From an uncultured Bacteroidia bacterium (GTDB taxonomy: Bacteria > Bacteroidota > Bacteroidia > Bacteroidales > UBA932): DNA of 41,354 nt. The notes under the pieces were generated by a model, which saw only the letters and a list, made by a program, of their open reading frames with translations, did no database searches and was not told the DNA's origin. Within the stretch, counting starts at the first letter, position 1. Every line of letters starts with the position of its first letter. The position numbers and the translations under genes are program-made. Positions 14,778 to 35,344 of this stretch are shown piece after piece. The stretch is from positions 1 to 41,354 of the forward strand of contig CACYWN010000017.1 in NCBI GenBank assembly GCA_902778105.1, read 5' to 3'.

Positions 14778-16103
14778 CTATTCAAATGCGCAGTGCGCAA
14801 TGTCTTTACGGTAAAACAGGTTTTCGCAGTCGATCTTCGCGACTTCGGCATAGACTTTCTCCCGGGCCTCGGCGATGGTGGTACCTTCGGCGATGACCAT
14901 CAGGACACGGCCGCCGTTGGTGACGAGTTGGCCGTCCTTGAATGCAGTGCCCATATGCGCCACATGCGCATCGACCTGGTCCAGGCCCTTGATTTCGAAG
15001 CCCTTCTGATAAGAGCCCGGATAGCCCTTGGAAGCCAGGACCACCCCGAGGGTGAATGCCTGCCGCCAGATGGCGTCCGGGGCGGGTACGCCGGTTGCGA
15101 CGGATTCGAAAATCGTATAGATGTCGCTTTCCAGCAGGGGCAGGACCACCTCCGTTTCGGGATCGCCAAAGCGGGCGTTGAACTCGATGACTTTGATCCC
15201 CTGCGGGGTCTTCATCAGGCCGCCGTACAGGACGCCGGAGAGCGGTTTCCCTTCGGCGACCATCGCCGCGGCGGTTTTGCACATAATCTCCTGATAGGCG
15301 AACTGACGGTCTTTCTCCGTAATGAAAGGAAGGCCCGTATAGGCGCCCATGCCGCCGGTATTCGGGCCTTTGTCGCCGTCGAAAGCACGCTTGTGGTCCT
15401 GCGAGAGAGGCATCGGATACACGCGTGAGCCGTCCACGAAACACAGGAAGGAAAACTCCGGCCCGGTCAGGAAATCCTCGACCACCACGCGGCCGGCGCC
15501 AAAGGTATGGTCCAGCAGCATGTCGGCCAGTGCTTTCTTCGCCTCTTCCAGATCCTGGGCGATGACGACGCCCTTCCCGGCCGCCAGACCGTCGTATTTG
15601 AGGACGGCCGGGAACGGACGGGACGAGACATAGGAAAGTGCTTCGTTATAATCGGAAAATGCTTTGTAGGAGGCTGTAGGAACGCCGTATTTCTCCATGA
15701 GCCGCTTGGCGAACTCCTTGGAGCTCTCAATGGCCGTGGCGGCCTTCGTATGGCCGAAAATCTTGAGTCCGGCAGCGCGGAAAGCGTCCACGATGCCGAC
15801 GGCCAGCGCCGCTTCCGGTCCGACGACGGTCAGGTCCACCCCGTGCTCCAGCGCGAAGGTTTTCAGGCCTTCCACATCCGTATCCTTGAGAGGCACGTTC
15901 TCGGCCACGAGGCCGATGCCCGCATTGCCGGGAGCGCAATATATCTTGCCCACCTGCGGAGAACGGGCCAGTGCATCCACGATGGCGTGCTCACGCCCGC
16001 CGCCGCCGACGACCAGGACCGTCTTCGGGAAACAGTCTTCCATCCGGATATCCTTGGGATCCGTCTTGTTCGACATGCTCGGTTTGTAAAAAACGGCGTC
16101 CAT
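14778..16103 (-). CDS. purD: phosphoribosylamine--glycine ligase
   Basis: PurD joins glycine to phosphoribosylamine with ATP, the second step of purine synthesis. The ATP-grasp enzyme shows [18 protein letters not shown] near its start, [38 protein letters not shown] and [18 protein letters not shown]. The product (441 residues from the first ATG) is a little longer than usual. Starts at 16076 or at 16043 ([14 protein letters not shown], with AAGGA eight bases upstream) would fit the family better, so the true N-terminus is uncertain. The gene begins 5 bases after the purH stop. Confidence 0.95.
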
Positions 16104-16108
16104 AAAGA

Positions 16109-17644
16109 TCAGTGCTTGAAATGTCTTACACCGGTGAAGAGCATCGTGATACCCAGTTCGTCGGCCTTCTTGATGGCGTCCTCGTCACGGATGCTGCCGC
16201 CGGGCTGCACGATGGCGGTCACGCCGTACTTGGCGGCGAGGGCCACGGTGTCGTCGAACGGGAGGAAGCCGTCGGAGGAAAGGACCAGGTTCTCGGTGAA
16301 ACCGGCAGCCTTCGCCTCCTCGAGGGCGATCTCGGCGGAACCGACGCGGTTCGTCTGGCCGGCGCCCACGCCGATGGTGTGGTTGTCACGGACGACACAG
16401 ATCGCATTGGATTTCACGTGCTTGACAATCTTCCAGCCGAAGTTCAGGTCGGCCATCTGCGCCTCGGTGGGCTTCACCTTCGTCACGCACATCTCGGGAG
16501 TGACGGTCTCCACCTGGGTGTCCAGCTGCTGCACGAGCAGGCCGCCGTTCACGCTCACATACTGCGGGACAGGCTTGCCGTCGCGGGTCATATCGACCTG
16601 CATCACGCGGAGGTTCTTCTTGGTGGAGAGGATTTCCAGGGCTTCCGGGGTATAGGACGGGGCGATGACGATCTCCAGGAAGATGGGCTTCATCCCGCGG
16701 GCCACCTCGGCGGTGAGTTCACGGTTCACGCCCACGATACCGCCGTAGATGCTCACCTTATCGGCCTCGTAGGCGGCCTGCCAGGCCTCCTCGATGGTCT
16801 TGCCCACGGCCGCGCCGCAGGGATTCATGTGCTTGAGGGCCACGCAGAACGGCTCCTCGAAGTCACGCAGCACGTTCAGGGCCGCATTGGCATCCTGGAT
16901 GTTGTTGTAGGAGAGTTCCTTGCCCTGGATCTGCTTCGCGAAGGCCAGGGAGAAGGGAGCCGGCTCGAGGGCGGCATAGAAGTTCGCGCTCTGGTGCGGG
17001 TTCTCGCCGTAGCGGAGCGGCTGCTTGATGTCGTACTCCAGGAAGAGCTTTTCCGGCAGACCGGCCTGGGCGCGCATGTAGGTGGCGATGCAGGCGTCGT
17101 ACTCGGCCGTATGGGTATAGGCCTTGGCGGAGAGCTTCAGGCGGGTTTCCGGGCTGGTGGTGCCGTTCTCGCGGAGTTCGGCAAGGACGGTGTCATAGTC
17201 GGCCGGATTGCAGACGATGGTCACGTCACGCCAGTTCTTCGCAGCGCTGCGGACCATGGACGGACCGCCGATGTCGATGTTCTCGATGGCATCTTCCAGG
17301 GTGACGCCTTCCTTGGCAATGGTCTGGCGGAAAGGATAGAGGTTCACGCACACGAGGTCGATGGTCTCGATGCCGTTCTCCTTCAGCGTGTCCATATGGG
17401 CCTGCAGGTCGCGGCGGGCCAGGATGCCACCGTGCACTTTCGGATGCAGAGTCTTCACCCGGCCGTCCAGGATCTCCGGGAAACCGGTGACCTCGCTGAT
17501 GCCGATGGTCTTCACGCCTTCCTTCTCGAGAAGTTTCTGGGTACCCCCGGTGGCGATGATTTCCCAACCGAGGTCCACGAGGCCCCGGACGAAGTCCACG
17601 AGGCCGGTCTTGTCGCTGACGCTGACTAACGCTCTTTTGCTCAT
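16109..17644 (-). CDS. purH: AICAR transformylase / IMP cyclohydrolase
   Basis: PurH catalyses the last two steps to IMP: formylation of AICAR with 10-formyl-THF, then ring closure. The 511 residues have the normal two-domain layout. The N-terminal cyclohydrolase begins with MSKRALVSVSDKTGLVDFVR and includes FPEILDGRVKTLHPKVHGGI. The C-terminal transformylase includes LRYGENPHQSANFYA, KHMNPCGAAVGKTIEEAW and SDGFLPFDDTV. The gene overlaps purN by ATGA (17641-17644), so translation is probably coupled. A 505-codon antisense frame here is a composition artefact. Confidence 0.97.
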   Translation of the reverse strand: MSKRALVSVSDKTGLVDFVRGLVDLGWEIIATGGTQKLLEKEGVKTIGISEVTGFPEILDGRVKTLHPKVHGGILARRDLQAHMDTLKENGIETIDLVCVNLYPFRQTIAKEGVTLEDAIENIDIGGPSMVRSAAKNWRDVTIVCNPADYDTVLAELRENGTTSPETRLKLSAKAYTHTAEYDACIATYMRAQAGLPEKLFLEYDIKQPLRYGENPHQSANFYAALEPAPFSLAFAKQIQGKELSYNNIQDANAALNVLRDFEEPFCVALKHMNPCGAAVGKTIEEAWQAAYEADKVSIYGGIVGVNRELTAEVARGMKPIFLEIVIAPSYTPEALEILSTKKNLRVMQVDMTRDGKPVPQYVSVNGGLLVQQLDTQVETVTPEMCVTKVKPTEAQMADLNFGWKIVKHVKSNAICVVRDNHTIGVGAGQTNRVGSAEIALEEAKAAGFTENLVLSSDGFLPFDDTVALAAKYGVTAIVQPGGSIRDEDAIKKADELGITMLFTGVRHFKH

Positions 17645-34249: not shown

Positions 34250-34264
34250 ATAGAACACTGAACT

Positions 34265-35344
34265 ATGAAGCATCTCATCGACCCGACCGATCTGACCAAA
34301 CAGGAGATCGACGAAATCATTTCCCTCGCCCAGGACATCATCGCCCACCGGGAACGCTACCAGGGCAGTATGTCCCACAAGAAGCTCGCCACCCTCTTCT
34401 ACGAGCCCAGCACCCGTACACGGCTGAGTTTCACCTCCGCCATGATGGAACTGGGCGGCAAGGTACTGGGATTCTCCGACGCCCGCAGCAGCTCCGTTTC
34501 CAAGGGCGAAAGCGTGCAGGACACCGTCCGCGTGCTGGGTTGTTTCGCCGATATCATCGCGATGCGCCATCATATCGAAGGTGCCCAGCTGTACGCCACC
34601 GAAGTGTCCACCGTGCCTATCATCAACGCCGGCGACGGCTCCCACAGCCATCCTACGCAGACGCTTACGGACCTGCTGACCATCCAGCGGGAGCTGGGAC
34701 ACATCGACGGAATCACGATCGGCTTCTGCGGCGACCTCCGCTTCGGCCGTACCGTCCACTCCCTGATCAAGGCCCTGTCCCGGTACAAGGACATCAAGGT
34801 CATCCTCATCGCCCCGGACGAACTCAAGCTTCCGGACTACATCAAGCAGGATGTCTGCGAACGAACCGGCATCCCCTACCGCGAAGTGACCACGATGGAA
34901 GAAGTGATGGGCGAACTGGACGTCCTGTATATGACCCGCGTGCAGAAGGAACGCTTCCTGGACGAGGACGAATTCGACCGCGTGAAGGACAGCTTCGTGC
35001 TGGATGCCGCCCGCATGACCCTCGCCAAGAAGGACATGGCCGTCCTGCACCCGCTCCCCCGCGTGAACGAAATCCTGACCGAAGTGGACGCCGACCCCCG
35101 CGCCGCCTACTTCCGCCAGGTGGAGAACGGCAAATTCGTCCGCGAGGCTCTTATCGTCAAGCTGATGGAATGGAAAGACGACCCTGAGCACGGCATGCCC
35201 GCCGACGAAACGCCGGTGGAAGACCCGGAACTCCGCTGCCCTAACAAGAAATGCATCTGCAACAACGAACACGCCCCACACCGCTTCCGCCGCACCGAAA
35301 ACGGCGTCCTAAGGTGCTGGTACTGTGATTCGAAGGTGAAGTAA
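34265..35344 (+). CDS. pyrB: aspartate carbamoyltransferase with fused PyrI-like zinc knuckle
   Basis: The catalytic chain fills about residues 1-305: FYEPSTRTRLSF (carbamoyl phosphate), SSSVSKGES with the mobile Ser/Lys loop, HSHPTQTLTDLLT, YMTRVQKERF and HPLPRVNEI. A linker is followed by a 35-residue tail starting CPNKKC (Cys325, Cys330) and ending CWYC (Cys351, Cys354). This has the C-x4-C ... C-x2-C pattern of the zinc domain of the regulatory chain PyrI, which contacts PyrB in the E. coli holoenzyme. The nucleotide-binding allosteric domain of PyrI is absent. The zinc tail may stabilise catalytic trimers without giving CTP control. It is the last gene of the operon and is followed by a strong terminator. 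Confidence 0.93.
   Translation: MKHLIDPTDLTKQEIDEIISLAQDIIAHRERYQGSMSHKKLATLFYEPSTRTRLSFTSAMMELGGKVLGFSDARSSSVSKGESVQDTVRVLGCFADIIAMRHHIEGAQLYATEVSTVPIINAGDGSHSHPTQTLTDLLTIQRELGHIDGITIGFCGDLRFGRTVHSLIKALSRYKDIKVILIAPDELKLPDYIKQDVCERTGIPYREVTTMEEVMGELDVLYMTRVQKERFLDEDEFDRVKDSFVLDAARMTLAKKDMAVLHPLPRVNEILTEVDADPRAAYFRQVENGKFVREALIVKLMEWKDDPEHGMPADETPVEDPELRCPNKKCICNNEHAPHRFRRTENGVLRCWYCDSKVK

Follow-up and report, generated by a model that had tools for sequence, protein, structure and literature searches.

Loss of the glutaminase sites of PurF and of the pyrimidine-operon CarA in a Bacteroidales clade, and the probable use of free ammonia in their place

Contig CACYWN010000017.1 of an uncultured Bacteroidia bacterium (GenBank assembly GCA_902778105.1), analysed here over all of its 41,354 nucleotides and called the window, carries a purine operon, purE-L-C-F-M-N-H-D followed by folD, which diverges from a pyrimidine operon, pyrC-carA-carB-pyrK-D-F-E-B. 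Within the genome, which comprises 2.66 Mb in 48 contigs and is 84% complete, the window is numbered C17; the identities of purN and folD were assigned by eye. The locus raises the question of how nitrogen enters the two pathways, since both PurF and CarA, the small subunit of carbamoyl-phosphate synthase (CPS), lack residues needed to hydrolyse glutamine. That glutaminase activity has been lost from the two proteins is near certain, as judged from their sequences, and it is probable, in our view with good confidence, that PurF and the pyrimidine-operon CarA are pseudo-glutaminases and that PurF and the pyrimidine CPS are here isoenzymes of an ammonia type.

PurF of the window scores well within its family (TIGR01134, 450.6 bits, cut-off 350). 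Its N-terminus reads M-GVLAVFG and, in the alignment with B. subtilis PurF (1ao0, 1gph), Gly2 falls on chain residue 2 and the start Met on Cys1, the N-terminal catalytic residue of glutamine-dependent PurF. Upstream of the start the frame is open for 8 codons only (KPSWIWNK); because these hold no Cys, no alternative start gives one, and another start codon is ruled out. Further residues that we take to belong to the glutamine site are Arg73, Asn101 and Asp127 (the number 101, for the position equivalent to Asp102 of the window protein, is likewise assumed). In the non-redundant rows, Met stands at the Cys1 position in 60/60 sequences of the Cys-less clade, Arg73 is replaced in 58 of them and Asn101 has become Asp or Glu in all 60, whereas Arg and Asn are found in 70/70 Cys-type rows; Asp127 is retained in 52 of the 60 Cys-less rows. 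The six scored residues of the phosphoribosyl pyrophosphate (PRPP) loop and the four Cys of the iron-sulphur cluster are retained in 60/60, and the median ratio of glutaminase to phosphoribosyltransferase (PRT) divergence is 2.17 for Cys-less against 1.15 for Cys-type PurF. The window protein is thus like the B. subtilis type in being about half identical to it over the full length and in sharing the iron-sulphur Cys and the PRPP loop, and unlike it in the loss of Cys1, Arg73 and Asn101 and in the absence of a propeptide.

The spread of these changes was followed in two samples: the best 80 of 118 loci by closeness to the window PurF, which is a biased set, and 166 genus genomes, each with a completeness of at least 90% except for the window's own genome (genomes are numbered G and loci L). 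Cys1 is absent from PurF in 80/80 of the former. In the genus, 109 of the 166 genomes match PurF at E <= 1e-60; 52 have the Cys-less form and 56 the Cys-type only, all with their N-termini read, while G647 stands apart, with a fragment of Cys-less type and a Cys-type match whose N-terminus was unread. A tree of 130 non-redundant rows (60 Cys-less, 70 Cys) places all Cys-less sequences on one side of a branch with a Shimodaira-Hasegawa-like approximate likelihood ratio (SH-aLRT) support of 100, and the clade persists at the same value with the N-terminal and site columns removed; the Cys-type rows nearest to it come from the same genus (G622, G629, G597, G593, G683). On this tree the PurF glutaminase was lost once. 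Both this tree and that of CarA are quick trees without bootstrap, and the PurF tree contains no crenarchaeal rows.

CarA of the window is likewise recognised by its family profile (TIGR01368, 331.4 bits, cut-off 307.35). It reads GIGLGME where E. coli CarA has GICLGHQ, so that Gly251 lies on Cys269 and Glu255 on Gln273, and in addition Val226 lies on Gly243 and Thr294 on Gly313; Gly243, Gln273 and Gly313 are presumably residues of the glutamine site. The Cys-His-Glu triad has become Gly-His-Glu, and Cys269 and His353 of the E. coli protein are called essential for glutamine hydrolysis (PMC6245113; here and below, citations refer to passages of the papers named). The triad is intact in 0/34 non-redundant pyrimidine-type CarA rows, compared with 61/63 other CarAs. 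Across the 34 rows the Cys site holds Gly in 29, Cys in 3, Asn in 1 and Ser in 1, and the His site holds His in 24, Gln in 5 and Tyr in 5, the broken forms ranging over Gly/His, Gly/Gln, Cys/Tyr, Ser/Tyr and Asn/Tyr; Gln273 and Gly313 are retained in 1/34 each. A complete CarA lies in the flank of 22 of the 80 loci, with Gly at the Cys position in 22/22. The pyrimidine type occurs in 28/166 genomes of the genus, all of them read and all with broken triads, the Cys being replaced in 25 and kept, with His changed to Tyr, in 3 (G607, G656, G559). In a tree of 57 rows, made up of the 34 of pyrimidine type and 23 from the 63 others, one side of a branch (100) consists of the pyrimidine type, whose 29 Gly rows form one group (100) with the five Cys/Tyr, Ser/Tyr and Asn/Tyr rows branching outside it; the root is unsure because of the long branches between the two CarA types. 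The ratio of divergence in the glutaminase to that in the N-terminal domain is 1.56 for pyrimidine-type CarA against 0.81 for other CarAs. The losses are old and differ in form.

A wide spread of pyrimidine-type CarA was considered and rejected, since only the window's own genome was found among 393 genomes of the order (E <= 1e-60); among 119 genomes of the family it occurs in G000, G072 and G076. Outside the pyrimidine type, the CarAs at L114 (G109) and L236 (G154) have the broken triads Gly/Tyr/Asp and Cys/Tyr/Glu, and that of L259 has an intact triad with Leu in place of Gln273.

The ratio of nonsynonymous to synonymous substitution rates of purF and carA against four close relatives is 0.025-0.16. 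In the predicted structure of CarA (mean predicted local distance difference test, pLDDT, 77.3) the best superpositions of the glutaminase domain on class I glutaminases cover 188-200 columns at about 2.3-2.6 A, and the whole chain fits poorly (template modelling score about 0.5); in that of PurF (mean pLDDT 66.0, PRT half weak) the N-terminal nucleophile half fits the glutaminase domain of GlmS at 2.4 A. The models suggest retained folds and nothing beyond. By their sequences PurF and CarA resemble functional proteins in which the glutaminase half is relaxed, and not pseudogenes. All genomes are metagenome bins as far as their titles show, which might point to an artefact of assembly, of start calling or of local mutation; this explanation is hardly credible, because the change is shared by 80/80 independent species loci, other site residues have changed too and no Cys lies in the open frame upstream of PurF, so that the comparative data already contradict it. 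The concern, set down beforehand, that the changes might belong to this single assembly finds its answer in the same 80 loci, in the 60-row PurF clade and in the 34/34 CarA rows.

Because the nucleophile is missing, the PurF and CarA glutaminases should be unable to hydrolyse glutamine. We propose that in both proteins the glutaminase fold has been kept as a structural part with its chemistry gone, while the PRT half of PurF and the CarB subunit, which are intact, are most likely fed by free ammonia. Ammonia-type isoenzymes would then make phosphoribosylamine and the carbamoyl phosphate destined for pyrimidines. Glutamine-type isoenzymes often persist elsewhere, such as the arginine carAB of the same genome and the Cys-type PurF of some relatives. 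Ammonia feeding is the likeliest reading because glutaminase residues have been lost clade-wide and the synthase halves conserved. E. coli PurF can still use ammonia when Cys1 is missing (PMC3261824) and vertebrate CPS I, with comparable losses, uses ammonia only (PMC4655335, PMC7657897), from which we infer the same use for PurF and CarAB here, with free ammonia as the substrate in the cell.

Several points weigh against this reading. The ammonia reaction of E. coli CPS is said to need very high concentrations, likely irrelevant physiologically (PMC6245113), so that an adaptation of CarB would be expected. On contig C31 the window's own genome has a second carAB, in an arginine operon with argB, argD, argC and a gene for N-acetylornithine carbamoyltransferase, and the CarA encoded there reads GVCLGSQ, with its triad intact; many relatives too retain a CarA whose triad is intact, and a Cys-type PurF is kept in some. 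The pyrimidine CPS is dispensable in some lineages, because in 14 of the 80 named loci pyrC adjoins pyrK with no carA between them (gap of 7-15 bases in ten, 302-923 in four). Finally, glutamine use has not been generally abandoned, because PurL, GuaA, TrpG and HisH keep their Cys. PurL of the window retains both Cys1078 in GICNGF and GHSER. The GxCNG motif is found in PurL of 76 of the 80 loci, three of the other four ending at contig ends; over all loci annotated, which are redundant, the Cys is present in 143/148 PurL stretches and the other five fall short of the site. In the own genome TrpG, GuaA, HisH, CarA2 of the arginine operon, PurL and a C26-peptidase-like protein retain the Cys of GxCxG (TrpG, GuaA, HisH and the last were named by eye), and GlmS ends at a contig end ahead of its Cys position. 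A cell-wide loss of glutamine use, considered as a candidate, is ruled out by the Cys kept in PurL, TrpG, GuaA, HisH and CarA2. The first-pass annotation of this DNA had described both glutaminases as seemingly disabled and PurL as spared, and this description holds, with Met on Cys1 of PurF and Gly for Cys269 of CarA; its proposal of an ammonia-fed entry survives as the likeliest interpretation of lost site residues beside conserved synthase halves, tempered by the arginine carAB in the same cell.

The retained paralogues admit a different interpretation, in which the Cys-less PurF and the broken CarA are silent or regulatory, make little product, and leave the flux to Cys-type PurF and the arginine-operon CPS. 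Indeed, of the 52 genus genomes with Cys-less PurF, 23 give a match to a Cys-type PurF in addition (Cys in all 13 that were read, the other 10 being unread), and a second CarA is found in 23 of the 28 genomes with the pyrimidine type. Among the 50 genomes behind the named loci, all with Cys-less PurF, 18 have a second PurF (18/18 read, all Cys), 10 others carry a PurF type of 586-627 aa (Cys in the 5 with a visible N-terminus) and 22 have neither. We nevertheless regard this explanation as quite improbable: in 29 of the 52 Cys-less genomes a search at E <= 1e-60 gave no Cys-type PurF, the genes stand in full purine and pyrimidine operons under purifying selection, and the PRT active-site loop is unchanged in 60/60. 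In the own genome, 84% complete, no second PurF of that kind was found.

The second CarA might also act in trans, as might a free-standing glutaminase, by docking on Cys-less PurF or on CarB, in which case nitrogen would still come from glutamine; carB genes without an adjoining carA could borrow one in this manner. This seems unlikely, because in most loci read the broken CarA still adjoins its CarB and would occupy the docking site, and because five genomes (G592, G621, G635, G645, G707) show no second CarA at E <= 1e-30, in a search that has false negatives. We know of no trans glutaminase partner of PurF.

Two further groups of PurF relatives were seen. A third type of PurF, 586-589 aa long (KHECGVAMIRLL), has both Cys and DDSIVRGTT; it is represented by L239, L240, L241, L242 and L245 and occurs in some genomes that have Cys-less PurF. 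A separate PurF-like paralogue, 30-33% identical, is found at L147, L148, L150, L151, L154, L156, L157 and L321; its N-terminus is M-G-G or M-S-G, without Cys there, it lacks the DDSxVRGTT motif, and in G588 (L321) it adjoins the pyrimidine operon.

Were the two losses coordinated, as the first-pass annotation had proposed? Cys-less PurF is present in 25 of the 28 genus genomes with pyrimidine-type CarA; over the genus the counts for both, CarA only, Cys-less PurF only and neither are 25, 3, 27 and 111, with a Fisher p of 2.8e-12 that is far too small because of relatedness and linkage. In 23 of the 25 genomes with both, purF and carA lie within 10 kb on one contig and, because both belong to one linked cluster, their co-occurrence need not mean coordinated selection. 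The two changes are also separable: G588, G597 and G622 have a broken CarA without a Cys-less PurF of the window type (G597 and G622 carry Cys-type PurF, G588 only the distant MGGFFG paralogue), and 27 of the 52 genomes with Cys-less PurF have no pyrimidine-type CarA. Whether two separate relaxations merely seem joint through the shared purF-carA supercluster, which would be compatible with ammonia use, appears to us evenly balanced. Against it, carA is also gone from arginine operons outside the cluster, and the triad is broken in two CarAs that are not of pyrimidine type; this decay hints at a lineage-wide relaxation of the CPS glutaminase. Of the proposed switch, linkage and co-occurrence stand; its coordination is put in doubt by the three separable genomes and by the 23 of 52 that also match Cys-type PurF.

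The loss of carA itself was read directly from operons, on which the following statements rest. The pyrimidine operon of G589 is pyrC-carB-pyrK, with carA missing, and the arginine operons of G590, G668, G621, G571, G661 and G633 are argH-carB, where relatives such as L227 have argH-carA-carB. Two CarBs from carA-less operons were scored and both pass as full large subunits; most genomes with such operons hold a CarA elsewhere. No CarA match at E <= 1e-30 was obtained in 48/166 genomes of the genus, a number that includes false negatives: G576 (L388) and G668 (L389, in two pieces in different frames) hold CarA despite the lack of a match, and a genus-wide lack of CarA is therefore not claimed.

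In G621 (97% complete), Cys-less PurF is accompanied by a Gly-type CarA and by an arginine-operon CarB that lacks a CarA; there was no further match. Neither in this genome nor in G592, G635, G645 and G707 (96-98% complete; contamination 9, 5, 2 and 1%) was a Cys-type PurF (E <= 1e-60) or a second CarA (threshold given above) detected. These five genomes, with Cys-less PurF only and broken or deleted CarA only, are candidates for ammonia-only entry, not proofs, because the search can miss genes, as in G576 and G668. It is a real possibility, falling a little short of probable, that some species make phosphoribosylamine and all of their carbamoyl phosphate from free ammonia, without a working glutaminase for either step; if so, vertebrate CPS I would have an equivalent in bacteria.

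Carbamoyl-phosphate synthase of the window is like vertebrate CPS I, in which the glutaminase fold is kept, the catalytic Cys or glutamine-binding residues are lost and the synthase is intact. Bullfrog CPS I keeps the triad and has lost glutamine-binding residues (PMC7657897, PMC4655335), a pattern that resembles the diverse ways in which the CarA site has decayed here. The two differ in that CPS I is a single polypeptide that functions in urea synthesis and depends on N-acetylglutamate (PMC6022934), whereas in the window the two subunits have genes of their own, carA and carB, within a bacterial pyrimidine operon. Human CPS1 has Gln318 in the place of Gly293 of E. coli, and this residue blocks the old ammonia tunnel (PMC4655335); this position is an alignment gap in the window CarA. 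For PurF, the nearest precedent is crenarchaeal PurF', which lacks the N-terminal Cys, lies near purine genes and was suggested to be ammonia-dependent but left untested (PMC3261824). The window PurF shares with it the lack of Cys and the place beside purine genes; it belongs to a different clade, the likeness being known here from Cys loss and gene context, and while genomes with PurF' each also have a Cys-type PurF, such a gene is missing, at the threshold used, from the 29 Cys-less genomes mentioned above. Lactobacillus plantarum and fungi have paired arginine- and pyrimidine-specific CPS (PMC6245113), likewise two in one cell with one per pathway; unlike these, the pyrimidine CPS has here lost its glutaminase residues and the arginine CPS usually keeps them.

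Cys-less PurF in crenarchaea and ammonia-type CPS in vertebrates are already known. Bacterial CPS is described as glutamine-using (PMC6022934, PMC6245113), which one review extends to all bacterial CPSases (PMC6245113), and CarAB of B. theta is treated as glutamine-fed in passages of PMC13252398 that do not mention PurF. In open-access full text, the literature covered here, we found no report of Cys-less PurF or ammonia-type CPS in Bacteroidota, nor of a bacterial CarA without its Cys or a glutaminase-dead bacterial pyrimidine CPS. Because standard profiles call the window CarA and PurF glutamine-type, models of gut nitrogen flow would wrongly charge glutamine for these steps. From an intact triad through lost His and lost Cys to a missing gene, the clade also presents graded stages in the death of a glutaminase whose synthase lives on.

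The closest named relatives are Bacteroidales bins, many of them rumen-derived. By their titles, 23 of the 80 loci come from a ruminant foregut compartment, 36 carry RUG/RUI labels, which we take to denote rumen genome sets, 4 are from deer or reindeer, 2 from hindgut or faeces, and 15 have no clear source. The rumen is rich in ammonia, and these mostly ruminant titles fit an ammonia-rich habitat, which may have favoured the loss of the glutaminases. If ammonia feeds both steps, a sizeable clade of gut bacteria would have a nucleotide synthesis that tracks ambient ammonia and not glutamine status. The features of the window are collected in the table.

Table. Features of the divergent purine and pyrimidine operons, in positions of the window.
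Feature	Position	Strand	Remark
purE	25068..25538	-	first gene of purine operon
purL	21325..25014	-	glutaminase motifs intact (Cys1078 in GICNGF; GHSER); internal control
purC	20596..21324	-	stop codon ends one base ahead of purF start
purF	19239..20594	-	class II glutaminase half predicted dead (residues 1 to about 228); phosphoribosyltransferase half intact
purF ATG start codon	20592..20594	-	at catalytic Cys1 position
PurF Lys73	20376..20378	-	Arg in Cys-type PurFs
PurF Asp102	20289..20291	-	Asn (Asn101) in Cys-type PurFs
purD, purH, purN, purM	14778..19235	-	3' of purF
pyrC	25777..26940	+	first gene of divergent pyrimidine operon
carA	26937..28019	+	small subunit of pyrimidine-operon carbamoyl-phosphate synthase; class I glutaminase domain predicted dead
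CarA Gly251	27687..27689	+	replaces catalytic Cys269
CarA His333-Leu-Glu335	27933..27941	+	triad His and Glu retained
carB	28012..31200	+	synthase subunit; TIGR01369 1454.9 bits, cut-off 1027
pyrK, pyrD, pyrF, pyrE, pyrB	31226..35344	+	

Some minor observations concern the arrangement of carA and carB in the loci read. Those with carB and no adjoining carA are L386, L387, L390, L391, L392, L393 and L399 (one pyrimidine and six arginine operons); at L392 a weak CarA-like match beside carB (26%, E 1e-7) was rejected, being a C26-like protein by its letters. At L394, L396, L397 and L398 carB lies outside both operons, with no CarA match in the stretch read. The second CarA and CarB form one open frame of 1474-1651 aa at L224, L230, L233, L234, L235, L237, L254, L258 and L325, and at L234, L235, L258 and L325 the same stretch holds a Cys-type purF.

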